The notes below the pieces were generated by a model that was not told the origin of the DNA, did no database searches, and saw nothing but the letters and a program-made list of their open reading frames with translations. From a virus, in the IMG/VR virus record IMGVR_UViG_3300035564_000128, positions 1 to 25,362 of that record: a DNA stretch of 25,362 nucleotides, one strand, 5' to 3'. Shown here in pieces: positions 4,172-25,362 of this stretch (within the stretch, counting starts at the first letter, position 1; the number at the start of each line of letters is the position of its first letter). The position numbers were made by a program, and so were the translations under genes.

Positions 4172-4711
4172 GTGAAGCTCAAGGGTCGCCCCTTAAAATT
4201 CGCGGAGTTCATTCTTCGTGGAGATAATCAAACCAAAGCATACAAGAAGGCTGGATACAAACCGAAGTCTGACGCGGCGGCGGGAACATGCGCCGCGCGA
4301 TTGTTGAGAAATGTTCGCGTTTCACAATATCTCGAAGAACGCCGAGAAGAGATTGCCAAGAAAATTCAGCAAGAAACAAACATTACCGTTTGCGATGTCA
4401 TTCTTGAACTCAAGCGAATCGGTTTTTCTCGCATCAACAAGATTCTCTCGTTTAATGGTTCAACAGTCACGCTGAAAAATTCAAATGCGATTTCCGACGA
4501 CGACCTTGCTGCAATCGAATCAGTCAAAGAAGGCAAAGACGGCATTGCAATCAAACTCTATGACAAGGTTGGTCCACTCACGAAGATCGGCGAGCATCTG
4601 GGAGCATGGAAGCCCAATGGTTCTAATTCTAACCTTTCTCGTGTCGTTAATGTTACCGTTCGCGTTATCGGCGCAAAGCGTCCCTATCAGTTCCATGTCC
4701 AGGCAAACTGA
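4172..4711 (+). CDS. terS: Terminase small subunit (179 aa)
   Basis: Recognises the phage DNA end or pac/cos site and recruits the large subunit. The N-terminal segment (KFAEFILRGDNQTKAYKKAG, then AARLLRNVRVSQYL) is the helix-turn-helix pattern of the Terminase_2 family. The middle (TNITVCDVILELKRIGFSRI) and C-terminal (DKVGPLTKIGEHLGAW) parts are also characteristic. I chose GTG 4172 because GGGAG lies 7-8 bases upstream and homologues begin near the KGRPLKF segment. The frame is open up to a TTG at 4097, but that codon would overlap the possible promoter. It overlaps terL by 17 bases, the usual arrangement. Confidence 0.85.
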   Translation: MKLKGRPLKFAEFILRGDNQTKAYKKAGYKPKSDAAAGTCAARLLRNVRVSQYLEERREEIAKKIQQETNITVCDVILELKRIGFSRINKILSFNGSTVTLKNSNAISDDDLAAIESVKEGKDGIAIKLYDKVGPLTKIGEHLGAWKPNGSNSNLSRVVNVTVRVIGAKRPYQFHVQAN

Positions 4712-6227: not shown

Positions 6228-6397
6228 TGCAGGAAGAACTCGAAGTCACGCCATACGAAATCGTAGCCGGTCCCGAGGACGAAGAGAATCGCGGTCAGAT
6301 TGTTACGCTTGCCCTGACAGGCGCAGGTAAGTGGCAACGCCAAGCAGTTACGAGATTGACAGTCACGTTGGGAATCATTCAAACTCATCCAAACTGA
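6227..6397 (+). CDS. Small hypothetical protein (56 aa)
   Basis: Starts at ATG 6227 sharing its A with the terL stop (TGATG) and ends at TGA 6395-6397, three bases before the next gene. The product is acidic at the N-terminus (EELEVTPYEIVAGPEDEEN) and beta-like at the C-terminus (RLTVTLGIIQTHPN). No family is recognised. The tight spacing on both sides supports a real gene rather than a gap. It could be a small virion or packaging accessory protein. Confidence 0.5.
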   Translation: MQEELEVTPYEIVAGPEDEENRGQIVTLALTGAGKWQRQAVTRLTVTLGIIQTHPN

Positions 6398-6400
6398 CCA

Positions 6401-6787
6401 ATGGACTCTGACGCTGAAAAGGCATACGAAGACTTCCGCAAGATGCTCGGCGGTCAAACCCCCCGGGAGTTCGCCGGAGAGCGCCGACCCTGGAAGCGCC
6501 CAGAGGACAGTCCGCTCTACGTTGACCTGTCGGATATGAACGCGGTATCGAACGAGATGGGTGTGATTACAACATTCCCGATGCACCGCAGGCGCTTCAA
6601 GGTATCAAAGCACATAGACCCGAAGGAAGTATTGATTGGCGCGGACAAGTGCCGTGTATTCGGTCACACGCCGATTGCTGAAGCACCGGAAGCCACCTGT
6701 GCTCAGTGTGGCAAGACCCGCGCAGAGCTTGAAGCGGTCGGAGAGATTTGGGATGGAAAGGGTTCGCTGAAGGGGATTAAGGTATGA
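6401..6787 (+). CDS. Zinc-finger-containing hypothetical protein (128 aa)
   Basis: The C-terminal part carries Cys84, His89, Cys100 and Cys103 (CRVFGHTP, then CAQCGKT), a one-zinc knuckle resembling small prophage proteins with a CxxFGH...CxxCG pattern. The N-terminal part (residues 1-70) is charged and not recognised. The stop overlaps the portal start by four bases (ATGA at 6784-6787). It is the third Cys-rich small protein of the packaging block. Confidence 0.65.
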   Translation: MDSDAEKAYEDFRKMLGGQTPREFAGERRPWKRPEDSPLYVDLSDMNAVSNEMGVITTFPMHRRRFKVSKHIDPKEVLIGADKCRVFGHTPIAEAPEATCAQCGKTRAELEAVGEIWDGKGSLKGIKV

Positions 6788-8913
6788 TGATAAAAATTCC
6801 AGACCTGACAGACGAGCACCAGAAGGCCGAGTTCGACTCTCTTATCCGCCGGTGGATCGAAGAGGATAATTCCGTTCACAAGGCCCGCGTCCCATCGTGG
6901 AACAAGATCGACCAACGCCTGACATCCGAAATTTCTGTTGGCGGCTTCTCTACCGACTTTATGGGTGACTTAGGCCGTGCCAATGATCCACGAACCGAGG
7001 ACTCCGGCAGCCCGCAACTCGTCAGCTTGAACCGCGCCCGTATGAACCACGAGGCGGTTCTGGGCGACTTCCTCGCCATCAAGCGCAAGCTCTCGATTCA
7101 ACCCCGAACCAAACGAGACGAGAAGATTGCCCGTATTATTCAGGCCAGAGTTGAGTACATCGAAGATTCCGAGATGTTCCCGACGATGGTCTACTTCCCG
7201 GCGATGGACAACGGCTTTGCTCGCGGTCTACATTGGATCAAGGTCCGCTACGATCCCCAGGCCAACAATCTCAAAGGAAAGTTCAGAGTAACTACCGTCA
7301 GCGCAAGGGATGTTTTGGTTGACTGCCGATCACGCGGCCCGTTTTTCCAATCAGCCCGAAGAAAGACTCACCGCTTCCAGCTTGAGGTCGAGGAAGCAAA
7401 AGAGCAGTGGAAGATATACCCAACCTTCAAGCCCGAAGTTCTCGGACCAGACGGCGAATACGATGAAGGTTATTCGCGCACGGAAGCCTCTACCGAGAAC
7501 TTCTGCACCGGCTACGAGGTTCACTTCCATCAAACCGTCACCCATTACTATCAGGCGACCGGCAATCAGGCCGAGCCGATGCAGGAAATCAGTGAAGAGC
7601 AGTTCTCCAAGATGAAGGAAAGTCCTCAGTCCGAGCAGATGGTATTTGAGGGCGACCGGGAAGAGAAGTATTACGCCGCGCTGTTCAATACCCACACCGG
7701 AACCCTCTCTGTCGAGGAAAGCCCGTTCGGAATGGACGTTCTGATTCCCGTGGTCAACATCGACACCGACCAAAGCCTCTACCCAATGGGCGACATCGAG
7801 ATATACTCCAATCTCCTTGACCTCTTGGATGTTCTGGTTTCTGTGTGGCTGTATAACACAAAGCGTACCAATAAACCCTTCTTCGACGTTGACCCGCGTA
7901 TCTATCAGCAGATGCAGGCAGAGATCGACGAGAAGATCGAGCATGGTGGAGCAATCCCCGGCCTCAAGGGTGTGCATGAGATTTCCGCCAATAGCGGCAT
8001 CGCCGCGATGGTCCAGCTGCTTCTCGGGTGGATTCAGGATATTGCCTCAAAGCACAACGCCTCGATGGGACAACCCCCCGGCAAGCAGATTAGCCGCAAC
8101 GCTCTTCAGATGATGATTGCCCGCGACCGTTCGGCACAGGGCCGCAAGGATCTCACGGTCAACTTCGCCCTGACGAGCCTCGTGAAGCTGATGACGCGAA
8201 TGATTATCGAGTTCGAGCAGGAGCCCGACGAGTTCCCGCTTCAGAACGCTCAACGCGGAACGCCCGCCTACGGCTACCTGAATCAGAAGTGGACTCTTCA
8301 CGACTACATGGGCCACCTGCACGAGATGTATAACATTCCTGAAACCGGACAGACCCCCGAAGAGATTGCCGGTATTCAGAAGCAGCTCATGGAAGCCCGT
8401 AAGAAGTTCGAGGCCACCAACCAAGTCGAGCCCGACGAGAACGGCGCAGATGGCTTCATCATCCCCTCTCTGCCGGAAGATATGCGGGAGTTCACCATTG
8501 AGCAGCTGATCGCATTTCAGGAGCAATCCAACTTAGACGAAGCCTCGTTCGAGCAAGCCTACCAGCCGCAGGAAGGCAAGATTCAGATATTCAAGATCAA
8601 CGACATCACGACCAAGAAGGACGTTGACTTCAATATCAAGTATTCACTCGATACCGACACCACCAACGACCCGCAGGCCAAAGCAGCCAAAGCGATGACC
8701 TATCACAAGATGGGTCTACTCTCCAAAGCCGACACGCTTGAAATGGCCGGAGAGCCGAACGCGGATGAGCTTGTCAAGAACGCCAACGAAGAGCAGCAGA
8801 TGATTCAACTCGCAACCGAGCTTGCCCAACGTCCAGATGTAATGGCAATAGTTGTGAAATTATTGCAAGGCGCAACGGCACAGGGGCAACCACAGGCAGA
8901 GGTAAAACAGTGA
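6784..8913 (+). CDS. Portal protein, P22-like (709 aa)
   Basis: Forms the dodecameric ring at the capsid vertex through which DNA is packaged. The support is position (after terL, before scaffold and capsid), size, and a layout typical of large P22-type portals. This includes an N-terminal region with LVSLNRARMNHEAVLGDF, a mixed region with ARDVLVDCRSRGPFF (the usual 'domain facing a conserved Asp' segment), and a helical middle with YPMGDIEIYSNLLDLLDVLV. The C-terminal helical barrel-like portion ends in a Gln-rich tail. The start is ATG 6784, overlapping the upstream stop. A catalytic function is not expected. The family assignment comes from pattern recognition rather than an alignment. 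Confidence 0.82.
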   Translation: MMIKIPDLTDEHQKAEFDSLIRRWIEEDNSVHKARVPSWNKIDQRLTSEISVGGFSTDFMGDLGRANDPRTEDSGSPQLVSLNRARMNHEAVLGDFLAIKRKLSIQPRTKRDEKIARIIQARVEYIEDSEMFPTMVYFPAMDNGFARGLHWIKVRYDPQANNLKGKFRVTTVSARDVLVDCRSRGPFFQSARRKTHRFQLEVEEAKEQWKIYPTFKPEVLGPDGEYDEGYSRTEASTENFCTGYEVHFHQTVTHYYQATGNQAEPMQEISEEQFSKMKESPQSEQMVFEGDREEKYYAALFNTHTGTLSVEESPFGMDVLIPVVNIDTDQSLYPMGDIEIYSNLLDLLDVLVSVWLYNTKRTNKPFFDVDPRIYQQMQAEIDEKIEHGGAIPGLKGVHEISANSGIAAMVQLLLGWIQDIASKHNASMGQPPGKQISRNALQMMIARDRSAQGRKDLTVNFALTSLVKLMTRMIIEFEQEPDEFPLQNAQRGTPAYGYLNQKWTLHDYMGHLHEMYNIPETGQTPEEIAGIQKQLMEARKKFEATNQVEPDENGADGFIIPSLPEDMREFTIEQLIAFQEQSNLDEASFEQAYQPQEGKIQIFKINDITTKKDVDFNIKYSLDTDTTNDPQAKAAKAMTYHKMGLLSKADTLEMAGEPNADELVKNANEEQQMIQLATELAQRPDVMAIVVKLLQGATAQGQPQAEVKQ

Positions 8914-11875: not shown

Positions 11876-13069
11876 ATGGCAGATAAGCCAGTTGTCAAAC
11901 GGGCTCCGATTACTGCTCAGACCGGCACAACGACCAATATTGATTTTAGTGCCGAGCTGACGATGGATCACGAGTCAGAAACCCCATTGCTGGCTTTGGT
12001 CTCGAAGCTGAAGACGGCAAAGGTTTCCACGTACAATTACAAGTTTGCGGTGGACCGCTTCATCCCGCGAACCGCAACAAACACCACGGGCCAAGCTGCA
12101 ACCGCCGCGGGCGTAGCTCAAACGATCACGCTGTCCACGACCGAGGCCGGTTACTTTAACATCTACGATGTTGTCGAACTCGTCGGTCCGGCAGAAGACG
12201 CTACGCATACAGCTCAGTGTTTCATCACGGCAGCCACCGTTGGGGGCACGACTCTCACGGCCAAACCGTTCGATCCCGCGCTTGGCGTTGTGGCAATCAC
12301 TGATACAACCGTTGTCCGCCGACTGTTCAGTTCAATGGTCGAAGGTTCCAGCGGTCGCACCTCTCATCAGACTGTGCCGACAGTCTATTCGCAGTACATC
12401 CAGATTTTTGAGGATTACTTCGATGTGACGAACGTGCAGGCTGAAAACCGGCAGTACACGATCCCAGAGCGCGCCCGACTTCGGGAAGATACCCGCAAGA
12501 AACACGCGCTCGACCAGGAGTACGCATTCTTCCTGTCGAAAGCCATCTCCGCTTCTTCGAGCTACATCGACACATCCAGCGTGACGGGCTACAACCGCTA
12601 TCAGATGTCCGGAATCAAGGACCAAATCAGCACGAACACGATGAGCTACGGCGACAAGCTCGACCAGGACGAGCTCTTCAACTTCATCACCCAAGTTCAC
12701 AATCCGACCTACACGGGCGGCAACAAGCGCCTCGTGTTCGCGTCCGGCACGTTCCTCGGAGCGGTGAACAAACTGGCATCTCCGTCACTGCGTATCTCGA
12801 CCCGCGAATCAACGTGGGGCGTTGCCATCAGCGATGTTCAGTTCGCCGGTAAGGTCTGGTCCTTTGTCGAAGCTCCGGTTCTCTCGGAAGCCCGCGACGG
12901 TCATGCGGTAGTCCTGCATCCGATGTTCTTGCGCAAACGCGTGTTCCTGCCAACAACGTACAAGATGAACGTCCAAAATCCGATTGACAACTTCTTCCGC
13001 GATGGCTTTGTGACTTCGGTCGCAATCGAACAGCGCCTCGAAGAAGTCGCTGGTTGGATCAGTGTTTAA
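11876..13069 (+). CDS. Major capsid protein, SU10/DUF5309-like HK97 fold (397 aa)
   Basis: Main shell protein. The pattern resembles the DUF5309 family. It has an N-terminal ITAQTGTTTNIDFSAELTMD region, then SETPLLALVSKLKTAKVSTY. An inserted beta domain (about residues 78-145, FNIYDVVELVGP and TVGGTTLTAKPFD) ends in EGSS. It is followed by YSQYIQIFEDYFDVT and a long helix RLREDTRKKHALDQEYAFFL. The C-terminal part contains GGNKRLVFASGTFLGAVNKL and DGHAVVLHPMFLRKRVFLP. The start follows AAAGGAAGG (11858-11866). It lies between the scaffold-like gene and a small head gene, the normal order. No N-terminal cleavage site is evident. Confidence 0.8.
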   Translation: MADKPVVKRAPITAQTGTTTNIDFSAELTMDHESETPLLALVSKLKTAKVSTYNYKFAVDRFIPRTATNTTGQAATAAGVAQTITLSTTEAGYFNIYDVVELVGPAEDATHTAQCFITAATVGGTTLTAKPFDPALGVVAITDTTVVRRLFSSMVEGSSGRTSHQTVPTVYSQYIQIFEDYFDVTNVQAENRQYTIPERARLREDTRKKHALDQEYAFFLSKAISASSSYIDTSSVTGYNRYQMSGIKDQISTNTMSYGDKLDQDELFNFITQVHNPTYTGGNKRLVFASGTFLGAVNKLASPSLRISTRESTWGVAISDVQFAGKVWSFVEAPVLSEARDGHAVVLHPMFLRKRVFLPTTYKMNVQNPIDNFFRDGFVTSVAIEQRLEEVAGWISV

Positions 13070-13575: not shown

Positions 13576-14130
13576 ATGCGTAAGAAAATCTTCAAATCAG
13601 TATTCCTGGCGCTGACATTGGTTCTGGCCTTGACAATTTTGGCCGATTCCGCGCTGGCTGTGAAGTGGACCTTCACCGCCGTCAACAACATCGTCACCCT
13701 GAACGGGTACGGAAAATACTATCGTGTCACATGGCAGGCCCCCGGCACAACGGCCCTGCAAAAAGATACGGTAATCATCAATCTGCCCGTGTCTCTTCCG
13801 CAAACAATCACCGGAACAGACACAACGCTATTCCAGGTCAATGTTACCACCTCTGATTCAGCGGTCATTGGCGTTCGCTATCAAGTCTCATCGGACAACA
13901 CTACGTGGAAATCCTACACAATAGGCACGGATTCCACGACATGGTACCCGGGAGCTTACGATGCAGATGTCACAAAGGCTATGAATACTTTTGTGATTTC
14001 TTCGCCTCAGTATGGCGGACCTCAACCATATAAGAGAATTATGATCGTGGGTTACAACCCCTCATCGAGAACTCTCTATGGATGGGTGGCGAAACTGAAG
14101 GTGGACATCATACCGTTCAAGCAGAATTAG
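13576..14130 (+). CDS. Predicted secreted beta-rich protein (184 aa)
   Basis: Residues 1-28 form a Sec signal peptide: basic start MRKKIFK, hydrophobic core VFLALTLVLALTILA, cleavage-like DSALA-V. The mature part is beta-rich with many Thr and Ser residues and Asp-Thr/Ser pairs (KDTVI, TDTTL, SDSAV, TDSTT), suggesting a beta-sandwich. It lies between the small head gene and the first adaptor-like gene, where a virion protein would be expected. This makes an export signal surprising. The next gene's region is preceded by a GC-rich hairpin. The family is not recognised. It resembles the protein at 15122 in size and layout. Confidence 0.7.
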   Translation: MRKKIFKSVFLALTLVLALTILADSALAVKWTFTAVNNIVTLNGYGKYYRVTWQAPGTTALQKDTVIINLPVSLPQTITGTDTTLFQVNVTTSDSAVIGVRYQVSSDNTTWKSYTIGTDSTTWYPGAYDADVTKAMNTFVISSPQYGGPQPYKRIMIVGYNPSSRTLYGWVAKLKVDIIPFKQN

Positions 14131-14153
14131 CCGTTTCCGCTTCATCTGTCCAC

Positions 14154-14187
14154 GGGGCCGAGCCCCTGCGAAGGAGTGTTCGGCCCC
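14154..14187 (+). promoter_or_regulatory. GC-rich hairpin between secreted and adaptor genes
   Basis: GGGGCCGA (14154-14161) pairs perfectly with TCGGCCCC (14180-14187) around an 18-base loop containing AAGGAG. It is followed by AACTTTATC, not a T run, so it is not a standard terminator. It could serve as an RNA processing, stabilising or translation-control element before the gene at 14212. Confidence 0.4.
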
Positions 14188-14211
14188 AACTTTATCAAGG
14201 AGAAGCGGAAG

Positions 14212-15105
14212 ATGCTCACCGGCCAGTTGCTCTCGTACATACAACGCTATCAGTATTTTCAGGACAAGCGCATCTCTATCACGCCCGACCTTGCCTATCT
14301 TGGCGGGTCATGGGCTCAGGCTGAAATATGCTCTGAACTACTTTGCCTCGAAAAGAAGATCACCCTTGCTATTATCGCCAATCAGGAGGAATACGTCTTT
14401 TCTCCTGCGACCGTCTCAGCCGCAACGGCCACATCTCCGGTCCGGCTTACCGTGACCGCGCATCCGTTCAACACCGGCGATACCATTCAGATCGGCGGTA
14501 TTCTTGGTCTGACGGGCGCAAACGGCTATTTCACCTGCACAAAAGTAAACGCCAACACGATCAGCCTCGACGGTTCGACAGGCGGCGGTGCATGGACTTC
14601 CGGCGGGACGGTTTATCATTGCCTCTCATCCGCGGTTGACATCAAGATGATTTCCCGAAGCGAATATCCTTTCGGGCCAATCAAGCGAAAGCAGATTCAT
14701 ACAGCCCAAGAGGATCGCGCCTATATGATAGATTCTCAAGGCGCAGATACAAGTGGCGGTCCTCAACCAGGCTCTTACAGCGTCATCTACGAAGATCCGA
14801 TTCGTCTCACGTTCCAACCCAAGCCGACCGCAAATACAACGGTCAACTTGGTTATCTGGCGCAAACCGCTTCCAAGTGAAGCCTTGAGCGCATCGGTCAA
14901 TCCGATTATTCCCGCACAGTTCGACAAGGCCCTCTATCTGGGCGCTCTCGTGCAAGTACTGGAACTTCTGCAACTCGAAGAAGCCGCGCCAGTAATTGCC
15001 CAAGTGCGTCAGGTGTATCAAGAAGAAGTAGCCCGTCAAGCGGCGATTATGGCTTCTACGCGAAGAGTGCGAAAAGAAAGCACGAAATCATTCAAGTGGT
15101 CATAG
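14212..15105 (+). CDS. Head-tail adaptor-like structural protein with inserted beta domain (297 aa)
   Basis: I chose ATG 14212 because AAGGAGAAG lies just upstream. An in-frame GTG at 14176 falls inside the hairpin and is less likely. The outer parts fit adaptor proteins of the neck. These are an N-terminal helix (MLTGQLLSYIQRYQ), a beta region with EYPFGPIKRKQI and DPIRLTFQPKPTANTTVNL, and C-terminal helices (FDKALYLGALVQVLELL). Residues about 66-138 are an extra small beta domain with HPFNTGDTIQIGGILG and ANTISLDGST, a pattern seen in many phage structural proteins. It is the first of three adaptor-like proteins. The assignment is tentative because adaptor families diverge strongly. Confidence 0.62.
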   Translation: MLTGQLLSYIQRYQYFQDKRISITPDLAYLGGSWAQAEICSELLCLEKKITLAIIANQEEYVFSPATVSAATATSPVRLTVTAHPFNTGDTIQIGGILGLTGANGYFTCTKVNANTISLDGSTGGGAWTSGGTVYHCLSSAVDIKMISRSEYPFGPIKRKQIHTAQEDRAYMIDSQGADTSGGPQPGSYSVIYEDPIRLTFQPKPTANTTVNLVIWRKPLPSEALSASVNPIIPAQFDKALYLGALVQVLELLQLEEAAPVIAQVRQVYQEEVARQAAIMASTRRVRKESTKSFKWS

Positions 15106-15121
15106 CAGGAGGGTAAAGGTA

Positions 15122-15691
15122 ATGAAAAAGCTATTCGTTCTTCTCGCGCTCGTAGCATTGACTGTATCGCTCGCGCCGGCGCAACAGGAACTATCGAGCC
15201 TCACCTACTCGACAGCGACCTTCATGTTCGATGACACCACCGCAACCTACGCGGTCAATCAGGTGGTCACGGACACGAACTACAAGCTGATCGTATTCCC
15301 GAAGGCAGTCGGAACCGATAAGGGAACAAGCTCTTGGTTGGTCGCCTTCAGGGTCTCGATTGATACCGCAGAGTGGACCAACGCCTCTTTCCGGTTCTTC
15401 ATCTACAAAGATTCCGCAGGCTTCAAGAAGCTCAAGAACAAACAGCTTTTCACTGTAGACTCGACGGAATCGACCAAGCTGACCGCTATTCCCTTCACGG
15501 TGACGTTTGATACTCTCGGGGTCAACGCAACTGGGGTGACATCAGCCTACGGAACCTATCAGCCTTCACAGCCTATTCCATTGAGGCTCACAAACACACT
15601 CGGCAATCTCTATGTGAGAATGGTGGCAATGGCCGCTTACAAGAAACCCGTTCACAAATGGGTCAGGCTCGAATGTTGGACAATGCGCTAA
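15122..15691 (+). CDS. Predicted secreted beta-rich protein (189 aa)
   Basis: It has a Sec signal peptide in residues 1-20 (MKKLFVLLALVALTVSLAPA) followed by Gln-Gln. AGGAGG at 15107-15112 places the start. The mature part is beta-rich with Asp-Thr/Ser pairs (DDTTA, TDTNY, VDSTE, FDTLG) and ends in a strand-rich YVRMVAMAAYKKPVHKWVRL segment. Size and build are similar to the protein at 13576, and the two flank the first adaptor gene. No family is recognised. Possibilities are an exported protein acting on the host envelope, or a virion decoration protein with an unexpected leader. Confidence 0.7.
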   Translation: MKKLFVLLALVALTVSLAPAQQELSSLTYSTATFMFDDTTATYAVNQVVTDTNYKLIVFPKAVGTDKGTSSWLVAFRVSIDTAEWTNASFRFFIYKDSAGFKKLKNKQLFTVDSTESTKLTAIPFTVTFDTLGVNATGVTSAYGTYQPSQPIPLRLTNTLGNLYVRMVAMAAYKKPVHKWVRLECWTMR

Positions 15692-15703
15692 GGGGTGGCT
15701 TAG

Positions 15704-16591
15704 ATGGCTACGACCAATCTCAATACGCTTATCCGTGCCGCTGCTCGCAAACTCAAAGACGAGCGCACAAGCCCTGCGTCGAGCGACGATACGGGCCATG
15801 TATATTCAAGCGCCCTGTTGACGGAGTATGCAAACCGAGCCGTTCGGGACTTCCTGAGAGATTCATTCAAGGCTCTCGGCAAGGACCGCTTCGCAGAACT
15901 CTTCCCCGAGTACATCAAGCAGTCTGGGGTGCTCACGCTCGCAAGCGGACTGGCCGCAAAACCATCAGATGCCTTCCTGGTGATCGACCTGTTTGTATCT
16001 GATCTCTCGCTGAAGTTCGACCCATTGGGAGAATCGAAGGTAGCTCAGGTGCAGGTCAGTGATGCCGGTCTGGACAACGCAAGCGCCACGCATCCGAAGT
16101 TCTGGGATGAGGACGGTTCTATCAAGACGCTCGGGGTGACAAGTGGAAGCGTTATCGCCCGCTATATCAGCATTCACCCCGACCTATCGGTTATCACCAC
16201 AGCGACAAGCGCAGGAACCGTCTACACGACCGCGGCGAACCTGTCTTACACCGCCGCAACCAAACTCCTGATAATCGACGGCGAGCTTCACATCTTCGAT
16301 ACGAACATACCGACCAATCAGGTTATTCAGCTTTGGACAAGCACCACCGTCTACACTGGAAGAGTCTCAAGTTACCACATAACAATCGGCGGGGATGCAG
16401 AGGTTTATCTTGACGGTGAGAATCTTCCGGCAAGCGACATCGTTCCATCAAATCTTCTCGGCATTGCGATCAGCGGTTCAGGTCCGAACCCAAACGACAT
16501 CAAGCTCAAAGAGTACTGGCACGGCGAGATACTTGAGCGCATGGTTCAAATGGGCGAGGCCGATGCTGTTAGAATTTCAAGTGTTCAATAA
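15704..16591 (+). CDS. Second adaptor/neck-like structural protein (295 aa)
   Basis: The N-terminus (TNLNTLIRAAARKLKDE, then YSSALLTEYANRAVRDFLRD) has the two-helix pattern typical of phage adaptor or head-completion proteins. A beta region follows (SDAFLVIDLFVSDLSL), with an extra beta segment at about residues 165-255 (GTVYTTAANLSYTAA, AEVYLDGENLPAS). A C-terminal helix (EILERMVQMGEAD) closes the protein. A virion neck role is inferred from position between capsid and tail genes and the N-terminal pattern. No database assignment is possible by eye. Confidence 0.55.
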   Translation: MATTNLNTLIRAAARKLKDERTSPASSDDTGHVYSSALLTEYANRAVRDFLRDSFKALGKDRFAELFPEYIKQSGVLTLASGLAAKPSDAFLVIDLFVSDLSLKFDPLGESKVAQVQVSDAGLDNASATHPKFWDEDGSIKTLGVTSGSVIARYISIHPDLSVITTATSAGTVYTTAANLSYTAATKLLIIDGELHIFDTNIPTNQVIQLWTSTTVYTGRVSSYHITIGGDAEVYLDGENLPASDIVPSNLLGIAISGSGPNPNDIKLKEYWHGEILERMVQMGEADAVRISSVQ

Positions 16592-16601
16592 GGAGTAAGC
16601 C

Positions 16602-17558
16602 ATGCAGAACTATCAAACCTACGCCGAGTTCGATTCCCTCTGCCAGAACATCGCCGGAATGAGCCCCAACGAGATTCAGCCAATGGTCCGGCAGAGGATT
16701 ATCAACGACTTCATCTTCCAGGTCTACGGTTTGATGGATGGCACGAATCACCCGTTCTGGAACCGAACCATCTCGCTCACGGTAGCCTCAGACCTTGAGT
16801 TCCTGTGCGATACCGTCACAGGCTCAGGAATACTTACCGCCCTAAACGCAACAGCGCACTCGATCACCCGAAGCACCGGCACGTTTGCCGCCGGAACGCT
16901 TCTCGGAATTTCGCTCGTCACAAAGGCTACCGGAATTAAGGTCGCTCAGTATCTTGCCCGAGTCACCGTAGCTGGTGCGACCGCAACCTATGAGATTATC
17001 GGATCGGTAACTGGCAGCGAGACCACATTCAACTCGTCAAATCACGTTCTCTTCGTCAATTGCCTCAAGAAGCTCTCGGCCACAAGTGCCTCTCTGGGCT
17101 CGAACTACATCAAGGAAATCGTCAAGGTATTCGACGATCAGGGAACCGATATTCTCGGCGCGACGGGCAAGGAAAGGGTCTTCAACACCGACCACGATGC
17201 CAAGCGTTTCGGCAATCGCTCCCAGGACTATCTATCGGCCTCGGATGTGTTCGTCTATCACGCAGGCGATACGATCTATTTCTTCGTCGGTTCCTCTGCC
17301 ACGGCCCTCGGAGTGGTGCAGGCTGAAGTTATTATCAAACCGACCATCTACACCGATGCCACGAAGACGAATCTTCTCGACTGCCCGCCAGAAGAAAATG
17401 GAGCCCTTAGAGATTCGGTAGTTGCAGAGTTTATGAAGGCGATCAATAAACCTGTTCCCGCGGATGTCGCCAAAGGCGCAGCCGCTCTTCAGGCAAAGGT
17501 TCAGGCAGCTCAGGCCGACCGCATCAAGGCAATGGAAATGAAGGGAAAGGCTGACTAA
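16602..17558 (+). CDS. Third adaptor/neck-like structural protein (318 aa)
   Basis: The N-terminal helices (EIQPMVRQRIINDFIFQVYG) are followed by a beta insertion at about residues 72-150 (SITRSTGTFAAGTLLGIS, YLARVTVAGATATYE). A second beta region has DTIYFFVGSSATALGVVQAE, and a C-terminal helical tail is rich in Ala and Lys (KGAAALQAKVQAAQADRI). An AAGGAG site overlaps the end of the previous gene. The stop overlaps the start of the large tail gene (TAATG). It likely joins neck and tail, but the exact role is unknown. Confidence 0.5.
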   Translation: MQNYQTYAEFDSLCQNIAGMSPNEIQPMVRQRIINDFIFQVYGLMDGTNHPFWNRTISLTVASDLEFLCDTVTGSGILTALNATAHSITRSTGTFAAGTLLGISLVTKATGIKVAQYLARVTVAGATATYEIIGSVTGSETTFNSSNHVLFVNCLKKLSATSASLGSNYIKEIVKVFDDQGTDILGATGKERVFNTDHDAKRFGNRSQDYLSASDVFVYHAGDTIYFFVGSSATALGVVQAEVIIKPTIYTDATKTNLLDCPPEENGALRDSVVAEFMKAINKPVPADVAKGAAALQAKVQAAQADRIKAMEMKGKAD

Positions 17559-20488
17559 TGCCATCTCCACTGTTCGATGGATTCTTAGGACATGATGTTG
17601 ACAGGGCTGGCTCGCCATTCAATTCAGCAATGGCAGGGCAGAACTTTGTCATCCATCGCCGCAGAAATCCAAAGAATAGCAAGGAAGGTTATATCGAGCT
17701 TGCCGACGGCTATGCGAAGAAGTTCTCGGCGCTTCCGGTAAACGATACGACGATCCGCAGGCTTTCCGATATAGCCTATGAGGACATCTACAACCTGTGG
17801 ATTCCAGAACACGGTGGTCGGAACGTCACCGTTGTTGCCGCGACCTATCGCAAGAGTGGATTCTTCTGGCAGGGAATTTCAGGCTCGGCGTGGTCTGTTT
17901 CTGGCGGCAGTCTGACGAAGGTTACTGGAGCGGGAACAGCATTTCTAACCGAACTCGTTGTAGGTCAGCATGTCCTTTTTGATTCAACGCCGAAGATAGT
18001 TCTCTCGATCACCAACAATACCGAACTGTTTGTCACCGTCGCCTTTGGCGGGGCGACAAGCGGAACCGCGGTAGCCTCTGCTCCATACATTGAACGATTC
18101 GGGATCTTCATTCGCCCGTATTGGAACGGCTCTTCGTGGGTTGACGAATGGTTTGAAACGACCGAGATGTTCATATTCACACTCAAGGCCCTCGGCTCTT
18201 ATGCCACCACGCGGCTCTACATCGACGATGGCACATTCAATTTCAACACACTTGACCCCGGCGCTACCGTATTCACAACCGACTACTTCAAGAACTGGTC
18301 GATTGTTTATGGAGCCTTCGGCGACAATGAGAACTATGACATCGTTAAGGCTTCCGGCTTTGGAAGCGAGTTTGTCGCCAATAGCTACTACCTCGACCTG
18401 ATTCATGTCAACACCGATTTCAGCACAAGAACGCCGGGAACAAAACTTCTGGTCTATCGCTCGTTCCAAACCGCGGAGCTTTCATCAACGCTTTCGAGTT
18501 TCATCTACGGATTGCTTTCTGAGGCGCGCTTGACAAGCGGCAACACGGCAAGCGACAGATCCTTGATGCTCGGCAACCGGACCAAGAGCTTTATTGCGAC
18601 GCACTCCGGTTACACCCTTCCCACGCACACAAGAACGGTCGATGGTGTAATCGCAGACATCGGATGCCCCGAAATCTGGGCCTACGCCGTTTGCCTCGGA
18701 ATTAGAGTTCAGAACGCGGCAACCGATCCAGTTCCAGCGGGAACATATACCCTCAGATACTCACTCGTTCTCGATGATGGAACTGAATCCAGACTCTTCG
18801 GCGCATGGACCGCAGCAGGGTCAGCGACTCACGAATGGGACACCCTTACTCTCGGCGGAAGCGTTACGCTCACCACGGGGCAGGGGATCAGGGTAAACGG
18901 GCTCTTCAGCTTTGGGGCATTGCCGATTCGCGCAAAATACCTTCGCGTCTACATGACCGATGATGTTGTCTATTACAGGGTCGTAGACCTCGACCTGAAT
19001 GACGCGAGCACATGGGGGCAAACCTACGCTTCGCCGCTTCCGGTGACTATCAACGGCACGATCAAGCATTTCTTCGCTGTTAGTATCGACACCGACATCA
19101 CGAACGCAATGTGGACCGCATCGACGGGTGATTCGGGAACCGATGCCGTTACGCAAATCGGCAGGTCTATTGATGATGACGGTGTGGTTCAGTTCAAGGC
19201 CGCCGCAGTAGTCGGGCGTACGTGCTTTACGATTGGAGTGCGAAAAGACGGAACGCTCTATCCAAACCACATTTTTGCAAGCCTTCAGAATGGCGACGGC
19301 GCTCCGCAGTATGACGCATTTGGACTTGTCGCTGAGAACATGATCGACCTCGAATACAACGATGGTGACGAGTTAATGTTCGGCTATCCGGCAGGCGACA
19401 CGCTTCTTGCCTTCAAGCGCCGCAGCGTCATCAAGGTCTCTCAGGGTTCTTCTGGAAACGCGGTGGTATTCATCCGAGATTTCGTCACAAAAGCCGATGG
19501 TCTTTGCAGTAGTCGAACAGTGGTAGGCTTTGAGGATGTGATCTACTGGGCCGGCTACAATGGCGTCTACTCGTTCTCTTCCCAGGGGATTCAAGTTCTG
19601 AATTTCAACTGGCTCAACGAGTGGAAGGCAATCATAGACACGTACAAGGAAGAGGCGGTCGCAATTTTCGACCGCACCAATCGGCAATACCGCCTTGCCT
19701 ATCAAACCGGAGCTTCGACCTACGCCGAGAGAATACTTGATGTCGATACCGGAGAGTGGGTCTTGAGCGCATTGACCGACCAGCCGGAGCGTTTCGCCGC
19801 CGACCAGAAGGGCGGAACAGTAGACTTCCTTTCGGGCTCTCTGATTCAAACGCTCGGAGCCGGAACACTTCACGATGGCTCGAACTTCATTATGGAGTAC
19901 ATGACCAACGATCTGCTCGCTTCACAGAATCAAATTGCAGACGCATTACTTCTGGATGTCAGGGTCAAATATCAGTCGGATGTCGCATTGTCATTGACGC
20001 TCTACCGAGATGGGGTTCCCCAGTCCGCAGTCGTAGCGGCGGCCGGAAACGGCTCAGTTCTCATCTCGGCAGGGCTATCTTATCGCTGCAAGAACTTCCG
20101 ATTAAAGATCATTGCGGTCACAACCGATGTCAACCAATCGGTTAAGATCAAAGAAATCTGCCCCAGGTATCAGATGATTCCGGCGGGAGTTACCCGTCCA
20201 TCATTCGCATCCGAAGGCGCAGCCGCAGCGATTGACCAAAGACCTATGACGCTTGCCGATGTCCGCTCTGGAACCTGTAACCTCGTCGCCGGAGTGCTCA
20301 CAACCGTCACGTTCACCACGCCGTATTCGGTCGCGGTCGGAACGGGCTACTCCCTGAAAGCCGATGTATTCGATGTAAACGGCAACTGGATCATGTCAGC
20401 GGAAGCGAAAAATCAAACCCGATACGGATTCGACATCACTTCGCCCGAGGATGGATATGTCAGGTACGTGGCCGCATCGTATCAGTAA
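17558..20488 (+). CDS. Large tail/nozzle-like structural protein (976 aa)
   Basis: This is the largest gene in the window and almost entirely beta in appearance. The N-terminus begins MPSPLFDGFLGHDVDRAGSP. Residues 113-178 are an inserted domain (LTKVTGAGTAFLTELVVGQH, SITNNTELFVTVAFGG) that I know as a common phage tail module. Further on, EDVIYWAGYNGVYSFSSQGI and DRTNRQYRLAYQ look like blades of a propeller or nozzle, as in tail-tube/nozzle proteins of podovirus-like phages. The C-terminal part has KVKYQ-like strands and a final YVRYVAASYQ. It follows the adaptors and precedes fibre-like genes, consistent with a tail hub or nozzle. There is no signal peptide. Confidence 0.65.
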   Translation: MPSPLFDGFLGHDVDRAGSPFNSAMAGQNFVIHRRRNPKNSKEGYIELADGYAKKFSALPVNDTTIRRLSDIAYEDIYNLWIPEHGGRNVTVVAATYRKSGFFWQGISGSAWSVSGGSLTKVTGAGTAFLTELVVGQHVLFDSTPKIVLSITNNTELFVTVAFGGATSGTAVASAPYIERFGIFIRPYWNGSSWVDEWFETTEMFIFTLKALGSYATTRLYIDDGTFNFNTLDPGATVFTTDYFKNWSIVYGAFGDNENYDIVKASGFGSEFVANSYYLDLIHVNTDFSTRTPGTKLLVYRSFQTAELSSTLSSFIYGLLSEARLTSGNTASDRSLMLGNRTKSFIATHSGYTLPTHTRTVDGVIADIGCPEIWAYAVCLGIRVQNAATDPVPAGTYTLRYSLVLDDGTESRLFGAWTAAGSATHEWDTLTLGGSVTLTTGQGIRVNGLFSFGALPIRAKYLRVYMTDDVVYYRVVDLDLNDASTWGQTYASPLPVTINGTIKHFFAVSIDTDITNAMWTASTGDSGTDAVTQIGRSIDDDGVVQFKAAAVVGRTCFTIGVRKDGTLYPNHIFASLQNGDGAPQYDAFGLVAENMIDLEYNDGDELMFGYPAGDTLLAFKRRSVIKVSQGSSGNAVVFIRDFVTKADGLCSSRTVVGFEDVIYWAGYNGVYSFSSQGIQVLNFNWLNEWKAIIDTYKEEAVAIFDRTNRQYRLAYQTGASTYAERILDVDTGEWVLSALTDQPERFAADQKGGTVDFLSGSLIQTLGAGTLHDGSNFIMEYMTNDLLASQNQIADALLLDVRVKYQSDVALSLTLYRDGVPQSAVVAAAGNGSVLISAGLSYRCKNFRLKIIAVTTDVNQSVKIKEICPRYQMIPAGVTRPSFASEGAAAAIDQRPMTLADVRSGTCNLVAGVLTTVTFTTPYSVAVGTGYSLKADVFDVNGNWIMSAEAKNQTRYGFDITSPEDGYVRYVAASYQ

Positions 20489-21572
20489 AATACTGTTACT
20501 TCTGATTCTCTTCAGCCTGAGCGCGCTCGCACAGCGGTCTCAGGTGATCCGCGTCGATACCATCCGCTCTTACATGAATGGAAATCTCACGATCAGAACG
20601 ATGGTTCGCATCGTCGTAGACAGCGCGGGCCTCAAACATGATACCGTCGCTTATCTGTCCGATCTGACAGGTGGGGGCGGATGGAAGCGCGTGGCGGGTA
20701 AACTCGAACCGCAGTACGCCACCGATACCGTTTCATTTCACTACGCAGAGCTTGATTCCTTGAAAGCCGCGCTCCTGAGGTTCGGGATTGCCAAAGGTGA
20801 TTCACTTCAGCTCGTCAGTCCAACGGGACAGGTAGCGACAATCACCTATCAAGGATCTACGAACAGCAACATCAAGTACCCAAGTCCACCGACGGGCTCC
20901 GCCGGATATGTTGCACTAAGAGATACGAACGACCACATCAAGGTAGACAGTGTTCGCATTCCCAATCCATCAAATGGTACCTACGTCACTATCGTCAATA
21001 CCACAGGAACGGCAGATACCACGCTGAACATTCTCGCCCTTGGTGGAGGCGGAAACATCGGGGTGTCGGGCGTAACAGTAGATGAAACAAGAACAGATTC
21101 GACGCTCGTAGATGACGCCTATCTATTCGCATCGGTGGCGGGAACGACTGACCACGCCTATGCCTATGGCGGAATCTACGCTGGATATATCGACCTTCTG
21201 ACCGAAACGGGTGGGGGTTATAGTCAGGGCGGGGGAGTGATCTTCGGCTTCAGCTTGCCGGATTCGGAATATAGCGTTCTTAACGTTTATGTCGATTATT
21301 GGGCGAAGGAGGGGTTGGCCAGCACCGCGCTCCGAGTGCAGGAAACAATGGATGGAATTGTAAGTGGCACGAAGCATTACATCATCTATCAGGGTGCACT
21401 GGCAAGCCACTATTCACACATAGGTCGCGTTGTTCGCATAAACTTTTATCTGGATAACCGCTACGGGTATTCCGGTAATCTCAAATTTCAGTGGGCTCGC
21501 TACGGCGCACAGGATGGAACCGAGACAACGCTATACGCCGGAACAACTATGGTCACATACAGAATCCAATGA
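20457..21572 (+). CDS. Fibre-like protein with Sec signal peptide (371 aa)
   Basis: The start ATG 20457 lies 6 bases after GAGG (20447-20450). ATG 20451 is too close to it. The first 32 bases lie inside the end of the tail gene. The signal peptide has a basic start (HRISK), a hydrophobic core ILLLLILFSLSALA, then Gln. The mature part has many Asp-Ser/Thr pairs (VDTIRS, TDTVS, LDSLK, GDSLQ, VDSVR), Gly-rich turns (TGGGGW, GGGGNIG) and a C-terminal beta domain from about residue 215 (YGGIYAGYIDLL, GRVVRINFYLDN). This is the make-up of a trimeric adhesin or fibre. Function inferred from composition and location; family unknown. Confidence 0.65.
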   Translation: MSGTWPHRISKILLLLILFSLSALAQRSQVIRVDTIRSYMNGNLTIRTMVRIVVDSAGLKHDTVAYLSDLTGGGGWKRVAGKLEPQYATDTVSFHYAELDSLKAALLRFGIAKGDSLQLVSPTGQVATITYQGSTNSNIKYPSPPTGSAGYVALRDTNDHIKVDSVRIPNPSNGTYVTIVNTTGTADTTLNILALGGGGNIGVSGVTVDETRTDSTLVDDAYLFASVAGTTDHAYAYGGIYAGYIDLLTETGGGYSQGGGVIFGFSLPDSEYSVLNVYVDYWAKEGLASTALRVQETMDGIVSGTKHYIIYQGALASHYSHIGRVVRINFYLDNRYGYSGNLKFQWARYGAQDGTETTLYAGTTMVTYRIQ

Positions 21573-22351
21573 AAAAGATTCTCTTCATATTCTTTTTACC
21601 GCTACCGCTATTGCTAAACGCCCAAACGGTTTGGCTTAGAGCAAGGGCAGACATGAACTCAAGTGGCCCAGTTATGCTCTCTCCGTTCGACTCTGGTGAG
21701 TTACCGGCGGGATCAACATGGGTAGGGGAGTTTACTTTGTTATGTAGGGTATGGGGAAAACGCTTCGTGATAATTACTAATCCTGCCAACCCTTGCCAAG
21801 CTGATGATCGCGGCTTCTATTTCTGCTACTCAGGTATAAGGACGCTCATCTCAACCCCGTCTGGTTCAACGCTAAGTACGACGTATGACTATACCTACCA
21901 CTGTTCACAATTAGACACCAACATTGCCATCTTTTACGATTTGGGTGGCGGGGATTGCTTGCCCTATACCGACGACCATCATTATCCATCAAGCGCGCCA
22001 AACGAGATACTCTACAATCCCGACGGTGGGGCATACAACCTCGGGAGCTGGGGTCCACCCGCGCAAAACCTTGATTTGCCAGAGCACATGGCTTTCATGT
22101 ATGGAGATTTCTCTAACCAACTCGACACACTACCCGCGAAACTCAGAATCAGATTCATTGTCACGTTGGGAGCCGCGGGTCACGTTCAACTCAAGTGGGG
22201 GCCAGCCTATTGCAGCGCCTCTTACGATTGGCCGTCTTACCGGAAAGGACTACCGCTTTTGGGATGGAAGTACGGCCCCATTAGCGAAGTGCCTACATTT
22301 TGGACTCAGGTTCGCCGCGGCTCTACTCTCTGGATGAAGAGGATAGGTTAA
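21569..22351 (+). CDS. Predicted secreted protein (260 aa)
   Basis: ATG 21569 overlaps the previous stop (ATGA) and is immediately followed by the signal peptide MKKILFIFFLPLPLLLNAQ. The frame is open upstream but has no sensible start there. The mature part has several Cys residues (LLCRVW, NPCQA, FYCYSG-like region, HCSQL, DCLPY), aromatic-rich stretches and Asp-Thr pairs. The C-terminal segment (KLRIRFIVTLGAAGHVQLKW, PTFWTQVRRG) looks beta-rich. Disulfides are possible if it is exported. No family is recognised. It is a candidate surface or fibre-associated protein. Confidence 0.65.
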   Translation: MKKILFIFFLPLPLLLNAQTVWLRARADMNSSGPVMLSPFDSGELPAGSTWVGEFTLLCRVWGKRFVIITNPANPCQADDRGFYFCYSGIRTLISTPSGSTLSTTYDYTYHCSQLDTNIAIFYDLGGGDCLPYTDDHHYPSSAPNEILYNPDGGAYNLGSWGPPAQNLDLPEHMAFMYGDFSNQLDTLPAKLRIRFIVTLGAAGHVQLKWGPAYCSASYDWPSYRKGLPLLGWKYGPISEVPTFWTQVRRGSTLWMKRIG

Positions 22352-22815
22352 TGATCATCCGTGACCAACAATTCGAGCGTGAACTAGAACGGATGCTCTT
22401 CCGTCTACCGAAGGATGGCGACCTGAGGCCCATTCTGACAAGCCTCGCCAAAATGATCGGCAAGGAACTCGACCGCATTGAGAAGATCGCCACCCCTGCC
22501 GTTACTCCGTCTCCAGCTTCAGGCGGAACGGTGATAGTCAACGGAACGACAGTAGTCACAAGTGTTGGAGCTGCCCCAACAGGAGTAATCGCAATCATAA
22601 ATCAAGCAGTAGTCGCGGGAGTAAACACAATCAGCTTCGCATCGCCGCTTTCAAGCGCAACCTACGGAGGCTTTCTGGTGCTCTCAGATTCGACCGGAAT
22701 GCAGATTCAGATGAGCCCATTGGAACTCGTAGCAACATCGATGACGAAAAACAACTTCATCTATAATGCACCGCAAGCTGGACAATTAAACGGCTTCGCA
22801 ATGGTGGCAAACTAA
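22351..22815 (+). CDS. Small structural protein with helical head and beta tail (154 aa)
   Basis: ATG 22351 shares its A with the preceding TAA. AGAGGATAGG lies just before it. Residues 1-50 are amphipathic helix (ERELERMLFRLPKDGDLRPI, KMIGKELDRIEKI). A Pro/Ser hinge follows. The rest is a Val/Thr-rich beta region (GTVIVNGTTVVTSVG, VNTISFASPLSSATYGG). This head-plus-beta design is common in small tail or fibre attachment proteins. It is the only gene of the 20457-25362 block without an export signal. Exact role unknown. Confidence 0.55.
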   Translation: MIIRDQQFERELERMLFRLPKDGDLRPILTSLAKMIGKELDRIEKIATPAVTPSPASGGTVIVNGTTVVTSVGAAPTGVIAIINQAVVAGVNTISFASPLSSATYGGFLVLSDSTGMQIQMSPLELVATSMTKNNFIYNAPQAGQLNGFAMVAN

Positions 22816-23253
22816 ATGAAGAAACTACTTTTCATACTGATGCTTCTGCCGGTGATTGCACTTTCGCAATCTCCTGACCGGAAGGCATTCCAGGAAATCC
22901 ACGTCGACACCCTTCGCCCAAACCATTACGGGCCGGGGTGGGCAATTGTCATTGCATGGCATGACACCATCTCGGTGAAGATTTTCAAAGACTCACTTCT
23001 TGCAAAGAAGGTCAGAATCGGCCCTAATGGTTCGATGCTCGACTCTGCAAAGGTTAGGACAGATTCTCTCTCGTTCTATTCAGGCGGAATTGCTTACAAC
23101 GCCTACAAGAATGCTCCTTCAGGCGGAAGCGCAAGTGGTAGTTGGTGGGAGATTGATGGAAATGGAAACATGATGCCCCGAAAATCCGGCGGTGAAGGTG
23201 ATACCTACTGGGAGCTCGATGCTCAAGGCAATCTTATGTCAAAGGCCTGGTGA
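22816..23253 (+). CDS. Fibre-like protein with Sec signal peptide and duplicated motif (145 aa)
   Basis: The start directly follows the previous stop. The signal peptide is MKKLLFILMLLPVIALS, then Gln (predicted LS-Q site). The mature part carries Asp-Ser/Thr pairs (VDTLR, KDSLL, LDSAK, TDSLS) in a repetitive beta pattern. Near the C-terminus is a duplicated motif: WWEIDGNGNMMP at about 110-121 and YWELDAQGNLMS at 131-142. The E.D..GN.M motif is familiar from phage tail fibres and structural repeats. It is short for a fibre, so it may be a segment of a multi-component one. Confidence 0.65.
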   Translation: MKKLLFILMLLPVIALSQSPDRKAFQEIHVDTLRPNHYGPGWAIVIAWHDTISVKIFKDSLLAKKVRIGPNGSMLDSAKVRTDSLSFYSGGIAYNAYKNAPSGGSASGSWWEIDGNGNMMPRKSGGEGDTYWELDAQGNLMSKAW

Positions 23254-23256
23254 ACC

Positions 23257-24015
23257 ATGAAGAAACTCATACTCGCACTACTTCTTATGGTATTTACATT
23301 TCCATTGCTCGCCCAGATGGACACCGATAACACGCGGGCGATCGTGCCGAGAACATCCCACTATGGAGAACTGGGCACGCTTGGAAAATACTGGCGCGTC
23401 GGCCACATTGATAGCCTACTTCTTCTCTACAGGCCGATGATCAACGGGATTATGGCGGGAACGATGATCTTTGTTGATTCTACCATATTCAAAGCCTCGC
23501 TACTGAAAAATGCCGACTCAACAACGCTCAAGGCGGGTCTTGTGGCGAAGTCAGACAGCTCTGCCATGCCGGGATACATTACAAGGTCTCAGATTGCTAA
23601 TGACTCAACGACGCGCAACGCGTTGCTTGCGCTCAAGGTGGCAAAATCCGATAGCACCGCCACCGGAATTACCATTGCCCTTGATTCAGCATGGATTAAC
23701 ACGACCGATACACTGATTGTGCCTCTGCCAAAATACGCGGTCCAACTTGACTCCATTGGCATCTATCAGTTGACAGGGGCTACCGCGAGCGTCGTCTACA
23801 AATTCCTGTATGCGACCAATGCGCGGGGAAGCTGGACGGCTGTTATCACTTCTCCAGCGACAATCACCTCTGTGACAACAGAGACTTGGCAATCCACGCT
23901 GAACAACCGAACCCTTCCCGCGAATGGAGTATTGGGGATATTGTGTTCGACGGTAACGACAAAACCGAAACTTGCCGCATTACATTTTCTCGGTAAACAC
24001 TTGCAATCTGACTGA
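23257..24015 (+). CDS. Fibre-like protein with Sec signal peptide (252 aa)
   Basis: Signal peptide MKKLILALLLMVFTFPLLA, then Gln. At the start of the mature part, VPRTSHYGELGTLGKYWRVG matches the 'P...LG....RW..IY' element found in many phage tail fibres. A repetitive segment (about residues 80-150) holds many Asp-Ser-Thr units (VDSTIF, ADSTTL, SDSSAM, NDSTTR, SDSTAT) and could form a shaft. The C-terminal part (VVYKFLYATNARGSWTAVI) is a likely beta head. The stop overlaps the next gene (ATGA). Probable tail-fibre or adhesin component with an export leader. Confidence 0.7.
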   Translation: MKKLILALLLMVFTFPLLAQMDTDNTRAIVPRTSHYGELGTLGKYWRVGHIDSLLLLYRPMINGIMAGTMIFVDSTIFKASLLKNADSTTLKAGLVAKSDSSAMPGYITRSQIANDSTTRNALLALKVAKSDSTATGITIALDSAWINTTDTLIVPLPKYAVQLDSIGIYQLTGATASVVYKFLYATNARGSWTAVITSPATITSVTTETWQSTLNNRTLPANGVLGILCSTVTTKPKLAALHFLGKHLQSD

Positions 24016-25362
24016 TGACTACTCGCAGGCAGTTCATACAGAGATTAGGACTTGTCGCACTCGGCGCACCGATGATGGCCAAAGATATGCCGCGCATCCT
24101 CATGCCCGATCCTGGGATTGTAGAACTCATTGGCAAGCGGTCGCTGAACGCAAAGCACTTCGACCTTCGCAATGGCTTTCTTCAGATGAAGGCCCACACC
24201 GCGCACATTCACTATCCCGATGGGCCTTTGAAGAACGGCGCAATGCAGGACATCAATTCGATTGCCGAGTACAACCCGTCGTCAAAGTCCTGGGCGATGA
24301 CCCGCGCCGGTTACGAAGCGGAAATTGGTCTCTATGGTGACGTGAGGTTTCACAATGTCGATCATTCGATCACCTTCACACTGGACAATCCCTCGAAAGT
24401 CGAAGCTGTTGCAAGTAATGATGACTTGGGTAGACAAGGAAAGTCTTTGATCTGGCGTGACATCATTCAGTCCGGCGGGCATCAGATTGTTCAGTTGAGA
24501 AATTCTTCACTGGCAAAGATATTTCACTTCGACGAAAAGCCCAAGTCGAACACGATTGATTTTGCCGTTGATTTCACAGGTGCAGATTTTGAGCTGGCCA
24601 CAGATAAACCCACCACAAGGCTCGTCAGGTCCGTGAAAGCCAGACAGACGAAGCTCCGGAGTCTGGGTCAAAGACAAACCTTCATTCGCCCACCACGGGC
24701 ATGGAATCACCGCGGGGAGTCTGTAGATATTGAGCTACGATTCTATCTCAAATCTGGAAAGCTCAGAGCCTCGAAGATCATTCCTCAAGCGTTTATTGAC
24801 GGGACCTTTGATGAACCCGCCGCCTGGTTGGAAACCGACACTACAACATCTTATTACGCCGGAGCTGGCGACGGTCGCGCGGCGTACAGCGCCAATGCGG
24901 TCTGGCTCATTATCCGAGCAACGAATGGAAATTTCGTAGATACCACGACGGCCGCTATGGGAGTTCCATATTTGAAGTGCTCATCTACCGGCAACAACTT
25001 TTCCCAAATGCACCGCGGCTTTTTTCCAATTGACACTTCGGGCATCGGCAGTGCGAACACCATAACTGCGGCGAGCTTCTTTGAATACATCGAGTATAGC
25101 GTAACCACACTAGGTCAAATGGCCGTTAATCTAGTTTCGTGGAATGGCACTCAGACCTATGACATAGGAAACTATGGTTCAACAAGATTTTGCACATCAG
25201 ACGTTTCCAGCTTCACGGATTTGTCATATAACGAATTCGTTCTCAACTCGGCAGGCCAAAACAATATAAACAAAACGGGAACATCTAACTTTGGAACAAG
25301 ATGCGCTTGGGATCTTGACGACAACCCGCCTGCATGGTCAAGTCTCGCCGTGAGCCAAGAAA
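24015..25362 (+). CDS. Long Tat-signal-bearing tail/fibre-like protein, cut by window end (449+ aa)
   Basis: The frame is open from ATG 24015 to the last base, so the C-terminus is missing. The N-terminus has a twin-arginine motif, Thr3-Arg4-Arg5-Gln6-Phe7-Ile8, then a moderately hydrophobic LGLVALGAPMMA and Lys-Asp, as expected for Tat export of folded proteins. Residues about 40-270 are mixed (NGFLQMKAHTAHIHYPDG, DVRFHNVDHSITFTLDNP). From about 300 a module with RGFFPIDTSGIGSANTITAA resembles the 'R.FL.FDTS.IP..ATI' repeat known in phage structural proteins. The start overlaps the previous stop (ATGA). Likely virion or adhesin protein. The Tat signal is unusual for a phage gene, and an accidental RR motif cannot be excluded by eye. 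Confidence 0.75.
   Translation, partial: MTTRRQFIQRLGLVALGAPMMAKDMPRILMPDPGIVELIGKRSLNAKHFDLRNGFLQMKAHTAHIHYPDGPLKNGAMQDINSIAEYNPSSKSWAMTRAGYEAEIGLYGDVRFHNVDHSITFTLDNPSKVEAVASNDDLGRQGKSLIWRDIIQSGGHQIVQLRNSSLAKIFHFDEKPKSNTIDFAVDFTGADFELATDKPTTRLVRSVKARQTKLRSLGQRQTFIRPPRAWNHRGESVDIELRFYLKSGKLRASKIIPQAFIDGTFDEPAAWLETDTTTSYYAGAGDGRAAYSANAVWLIIRATNGNFVDTTTAAMGVPYLKCSSTGNNFSQMHRGFFPIDTSGIGSANTITAASFFEYIEYSVTTLGQMAVNLVSWNGTQTYDIGNYGSTRFCTSDVSSFTDLSYNEFVLNSAGQNNINKTGTSNFGTRCAWDLDDNPPAWSSLAVSQE

Follow-up and report, generated by a model that had tools for sequence, protein, structure and literature searches.

Sec leaders on late genes of a probable Bacteroidota phage: candidate outer virion proteins proposed to be exported before assembly

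Introduction

In tailed phages, virion assembly is assumed to be a cytoplasmic process that uses leaderless proteins, and leaders are classically found on the lysis proteins. Virion proteins made with signal peptides are found in filamentous phages, whose coat proteins assemble in the membrane during extrusion, whereas the stretch analyzed here (virus record IMGVR_UViG_3300035564_000128 of IMG/VR, 25,362 bases, taken at full length and called the window below) belongs to a tailed phage with a cytoplasmic head. About half of the late genes of this phage start with Sec-type leaders, and these genes and the possible fate of their products are our subject.

Bacteroidetes substrates of signal peptidase I usually have glutamine (Gln) at position +1, the first residue after cleavage (PMC5837995); this Q-rule, which the leaders in the window largely follow, was described for cellular proteins, and phages are not mentioned. 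Nixviridae prophages of Porphyromonas gingivalis likewise have genes, of unknown function, whose signal peptides obey the Q-rule, and in this they resemble the window; unlike here, these genes were read as possible outer membrane modifiers and were tied neither to a virion module nor to a glycosylation motif (PMC10367356). Bacteroidota O-glycosylate only noncytoplasmic proteins, at the motif D-S/T-[A/I/L/V/M/T], which is enriched in their noncytoplasmic proteins as it is in the leader-bearing proteins described here; the review omits phages, and in the window it is the motif alone that is seen (PMC12871550).

The Cellulophaga phages phi10:1 and phi19:1 resemble the window in that several late genes in a row carry Sec leaders, the majority of them conforming to the Q-rule. 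Eight of their leader genes (phi10:1 gp091-094 and phi19:1 gp101-104), most with Gln at +1, are annotated in GenBank as structural from experimental tandem mass spectrometry (MS/MS), and phi46:3, phi13:2, and Ingeline_1 show the same leader pattern. The Cellulophaga phages differ from the window in that the sequences are unrelated, the virion genes are in another order, the glycosylation motif is depleted, and no leader gene was found in the phi10:1 head region. To our knowledge, these leaders have not been discussed in print. Searches of the open-access literature turned up no account of Sec precursors among the virion proteins of tailed phages, nor of Bacteroidota O-glycosylation acting on such proteins; the nearest was the paper on the Porphyromonas prophages (PMC10367356). 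Given these prophage leaders and the unremarked Cellulophaga records, a first-pass annotation of the window went too far in stating that no described phage has such an arrangement.

Results

Sec leaders alternate with leaderless virion genes

The tailed-phage genes of the window encode terminase, portal, scaffold-like, and capsid proteins, and the presence of the terminase, portal, and capsid genes together in one late module identifies it as a member of the Caudoviricetes. It covers the packaging and virion part of what, from its gene content, appears to be a short-tailed phage. Genes are named below by their first position.

Leaders were called with a simple home-made scorer of the n-, h-, and c-regions, which passed 2218, 13576, 15122, 20457, 21569, 22816, and 23257. 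The same scorer passed 4 of 930 spurious open reading frames (ORFs) (0.4%), 0.93% of shuffled N-termini, and none of 27 leaderless virion proteins of the same modules. At the 0.93% rate, six passing genes among ∼13 late genes give a p of ∼1e-9, and with these null rates chance leaders were ruled out. The predicted leaders have the positive n-region, hydrophobic h-region, and AXA-type cleavage site of Sec/signal peptidase I substrates. No Cys stands at the predicted +1 residues, contrary to a lipoprotein reading, and no C-terminal sorting domain of type IX secretion cargo was matched in NCBIfam. Export of the leader proteins is very probable.

The genes interleaved with them (14209, 15704, 16602, 17558, and 22300) have no leader, nor do the capsid, portal, and scaffold genes. 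Both the seven leaders and their alternation with leaderless virion genes had been claimed in the first-pass annotation and were borne out. A further Sec signal that it had placed at 376 is indeed a complete Q-rule leader (SVAGA↓QT, the arrow marking cleavage); the ORF at 376-504 opens only 43 codons (MTIFPTSAKRFVLFLALVSVAGA↓QTHKK...) and was rejected as a normal gene; at best it may encode a tiny exported peptide, or it may be what is left of a gene.

The leader proteins of the window had no family database match, including to known fibres or spikes, and the 13576 and 15122 families show no detectable relation to each other. By our own reading of their sequences, 20457, 22816, and 23257 look fibre-like, 23257 having DST-containing repeats, and the mature part of 13576 is predicted, with low confidence, to be all-beta.

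Leaders are kept in related contigs

Relatives of the phage were gathered by capsid, portal, and adaptor searches, which also returned further short or partial contigs. Four of them have capsid proteins with 76% (G001), 60% (G002), 54% (G005), and 44% (G003) identity to that of the window, and a 61.9-kb contig (G402) is also related. In all five, an orthologue of 13576 directly follows the capsid block, each time with a leader. Orthologues of six window leader genes are present in G402, where those of 13576, 15122 (at 53252), 20457, 21569 (at 60035; 24% identity), and 22816 (at 61299; 61% identity) occupy the same slots and have leaders, while the match to 23257 (5-823; 57% identity) lost its N-terminus at the contig end; a leader-bearing orthologue of 15122 is found in G002 as well (at 49709). 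Leaders were therefore retained even where the identity of the mature parts, which ranges from 24 to 61%, is at its lowest. Conservation in relatives had been named beforehand as a check on the leaders, and homologues consistently lacking them were not seen in this clade.

In the closest relative, G001, a leader protein of 850 amino acids (aa; incomplete) matches the PF12708 pectate-lyase domain, typical of spikes, at 8.6e-16. Tailspikes with this domain are, as far as we know, usually made without leaders, in which the G001 protein differs from them.

Cleavage sites follow the Q-rule and point to a Bacteroidota host

The leader scorer gives a small bonus to certain +1 residues including Gln, so the test for the Q-rule was run without it. 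With the cleavage site chosen blind to +1, Gln occupied this position in 10 of 18 leaders against a background of 4.1% (p = 5e-10); when the best AXA-type site was chosen by inspection, 19 of 24 clade leaders had it. Those without it belong to the 13576 family, in which Gln at +1 is mostly lacking.

These cleavage sites suggest a Bacteroidota host. A portal homologue (46% identity; L018 1-3098) lies on a short contig binned with the Bacteroidetes metagenome-assembled genome (MAG) UBA10030, which points in the same direction, although its frame is interrupted and the binning may be wrong. The host is probably a Bacteroidota bacterium. UBA10030 itself is not supported as the host: it rests on one MAG contig, and 15 of its exported proteins that were sampled lacked enrichment of the glycosylation motif. 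A capsid search of 395 genomes of the same phylum gave weak matches only, the best on a contig without a recognizable phage module.

The O-glycosylation motif is enriched in the leader proteins

In 24 clade leader proteins, the motif D[ST][AILVMT] occurs 108 times against 27.5 in shuffles (3.9-fold; z = 16), whereas 27 leaderless clade proteins have 45 against 47.9 expected; related members are not independent in these counts, and per-protein and per-family results are concordant. Control motifs (reversed, Glu, Asn, and D[ST]-other) were flat. In the window alone, the counts are 36 versus 6.2 for leader proteins and 15 versus 13.7 for leaderless ones. By family, they are 20 versus 4.3 for 13576 (with DST in the same column in five of five aligned members), 16 versus 2.4 for 15122, and 22 versus 6.0 for 20457; for single genes, they are 5 versus 0.3 (22816), 8 versus 1.2 (23257), and 3 versus 0.3 (2218), and 21569 is not enriched (1 versus 0.8). 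Enrichment of the motif in exported proteins, as described for Bacteroidota O-glycoproteins, is thus found here, and to judge from the motif, the clade's leader proteins are probably O-glycosylated in the periplasm. The Q-rule sites and the motif signal are additions to what the first-pass annotation had reported.

The enrichment could instead be a product of fibre-type sequence, in which case export would be right and O-glycosylation wrong. The repeats in 23257 would fit such an origin, as would the leader proteins of the Cellulophaga phages (L046 3848-9392 and L051 7455-13592), in which the motif is depleted (23 versus 63, against 28 versus 28 in leaderless proteins, with members partly homologous and not independent). 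So would the spread of the motif ratio in exported proteins of sampled genomes of the phylum, from 0.63 (G110) through 1.07 (G007) to 1.97 (G010), with nonexported proteins near 1 in all. We nevertheless regard this explanation of the glycosylation step as unlikely, since the 13576 and 15122 families are enriched without being fibre-like and the control motifs stayed flat.

Discussion

The reading that we favor, with some reservation, is that the leader proteins are spike, fibre, or decoration proteins that join the virion at lysis, having first been exported and processed. That they are virion parts in this clade seems rather probable from their position, their resemblance to fibres and spikes, and the analogy with the Cellulophaga phages. 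In such a scheme, assembly of the capsid, portal, connectors, and tail tube would take place in the cytoplasm, where these proteins would also be made. The outer virion proteins would form a separate set, comprising two beta-type proteins encoded near the capsid genes and the fibre- or spike-like ones from the module's end; these would be made with Sec leaders and exported by Sec, and the host signal peptidase I would cut off the leader, usually leaving a Gln, which the host could convert to pyroglutamate. In this clade, the outer proteins would then be O-glycosylated in the periplasm; they would fold outside the cytoplasm and would bind to the particles when lysis mixes the compartments. Whether a split-compartment assembly of this kind, joining a cytoplasmic DNA-filled particle at lysis with Sec-exported, processed, and in this clade O-glycosylated outer parts, operates in several unrelated Bacteroidota phages is in our estimate evenly balanced.

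Several points weigh against this scheme. Virion membership in the clade is drawn from analogy and from MS/MS of other phages rather than from proteomics of the clade, no homology was detected between the clade's leader proteins and those of the Cellulophaga phages, and virion mass spectrometry can pick up envelope contaminants. The route by which exported proteins would reach the particles is a further difficulty. The depletion of the motif in the Cellulophaga leader proteins means that glycosylation is not a general feature. Contact with a periplasmic enzyme can lead to either enrichment or depletion. The structure models add little: the AlphaFold2 model of 13576 has a pLDDT of 63 and gives generic, low-score structure matches, and the 20457 model, with a pLDDT of 36, is unusable. 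UBA10030, finally, is the sole hint of a cellular host, and its sampled exported proteins are not motif enriched.

The main competing explanation has the leader proteins exported without becoming virion parts: they would remain in the periplasm or on the outer surface of the infected cell and alter it, for example by phage exclusion, receptor masking, or adhesion. Leaders, Q-rule sites, and glycosylation motifs indicate export only, this is how the Q-rule genes of the Porphyromonas prophages have been read (PMC10367356), and 2218 may be a gene of this kind, given its location outside the virion module. Conservation of the slots between virion genes in several phages and the fibre- and spike-like content make this explanation doubtful for the set as a whole, and the analogous Cellulophaga proteins are MS/MS annotated. 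A domain of one of these also occurs in a virion tail protein that has no leader: relatives of the phi10:1 gp093 spike occur in 33 Cellulophaga phage records, and phi14:2 gp097, a leaderless 1,275-aa tail protein annotated in the virion by MS/MS, includes the gp093 spike domain in fused form, so that the same domain occurs both with and without a leader in Bacteroidota phages. The first-pass annotation had left the choice between exported fibres or adhesins and envelope modifiers; the PF12708 match in G001, the fibre-like proteins, and the Cellulophaga MS/MS annotations tip it toward exported fibres, with envelope modification keeping weight as the chief competitor.

Much less probable is that the proteins are virion parts that never leave the cytoplasm and use the hydrophobic N-terminus for docking or membrane insertion. 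This would account for Cellulophaga proteins that are annotated in virions while carrying leaders, whereas a cytoplasmic docking peptide would not be expected to have the full n-h-c structure of a leader, an AXA-type site, and Gln at +1, nor would selection on a periplasmic glycosylation motif be expected to be confined to leader proteins. Ordinary lysis functions (spanins or exported endolysins), on which leaders are classical in tailed phages, are a most improbable explanation for six proteins of 145 to 371 aa that do not resemble spanins or endolysins, some being fibre-like, and that have no match to a lysis family.

If receptor-binding parts of Bacteroidota phages are indeed exported, processed, and perhaps glycosylated by the host, virion assembly would depend on the secretion and glycosylation systems of the last host, as would host range and receptor binding; leader-bearing late genes would be candidates for receptor-binding proteins, and leaders would be useful in annotation. 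Since virion proteomics has already been done on Cellulophaga phage isolates, these offer an immediate test of the idea.

Other features of the window

TABLE 1 Genes of the window that bear on the leader proteins and the virion module
Feature	Coordinates	Strand	Leader and other remarks
Early 152-aa leader protein outside the virion module	2218..2676	+	Predicted cleavage AGA↓Q
Terminase small and large subunits, portal	4172..8913	+	No leaders; phrog_51, phrog_979/phrog_2, phrog_156
Major capsid protein	11876..13069	+	No leader; anchor for finding relatives
184-aa leader protein adjoining capsid genes	13576..14130	+	Leader score 19.4; without Gln at +1
Adaptor/tail-like protein	14209..15105	+	No leader; kept in five relatives; weak match to phrog_584 major tail protein
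189-aa leader protein between adaptor-like genes	15122..15691	+	Predicted cleavage APA↓Q
Two connector-type genes	15704-16591, 16602-17558	+	No leaders; conserved at up to 70% identity in G002 and G402
976-aa tail protein	17558..20488	+	No leader; weak match to phrog_511 internal virion protein; kept in G002 and G402
371-aa fibre-like leader protein	20457..21572	+	Predicted cleavage ALA↓Q; leader orthologues in G402 and G002
260-aa leader protein, 6 Cys	21569..22351	+	Predicted cleavage LNA↓Q; overlaps the preceding stop
171-aa protein between leader genes	22300..22815	+	No leader; G402 orthologue, 66% identity
145-aa fibre-like leader protein	22816..23253	+	Predicted cleavage ALS↓Q
252-aa fibre-like leader protein	23257..24015	+	Predicted cleavage LLA↓Q
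Incomplete gene with Tat-like N-terminus	24015..25361	+	Cut by the window end; sequence only

The gene cut by the window end starts with MTTRRQFIQRLGLVALGAPMMAKD, which fits the twin-arginine motif (TTRRQFIQRLG) and makes a Tat signal on 24015 plausible; the h-region is short. No family match and no relative were found for it, and its D[ST][AILVMT] count is at chance (2 versus 1.7 expected). For 20457, a longer ORF begins at 20451, but the ribosome-binding site belongs to 20457. A leader-like stretch at 4617-4690, upstream in the frame of the terminase large subunit (TerL), is most likely an ORF extension artefact within the terminase small subunit gene, and TerL likely starts at 4695 or later.

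Homology searches with the portal, tail, 13576, and 24015 proteins found no relatives in any isolate phage. The capsid protein is weakly similar to the putative one of Vibrio phage VS-ABTNL-3 (25.5% identity over 61%). In G002, the slot of 22300 holds a small protein with a C-terminal domain that is also found in the 976-aa tail protein, which suggests domain exchange. The genes at 2692-3309 and 8910-9413 are of HNH type; 8910 has two paralogues in G002, at different places around the portal gene, and this scatter suggests mobile homing genes. Tandem repeats at 1067-1585, within a gene that ends at 2187, are open in several frames (SQLGSQLDSQLYSQL in one of them).

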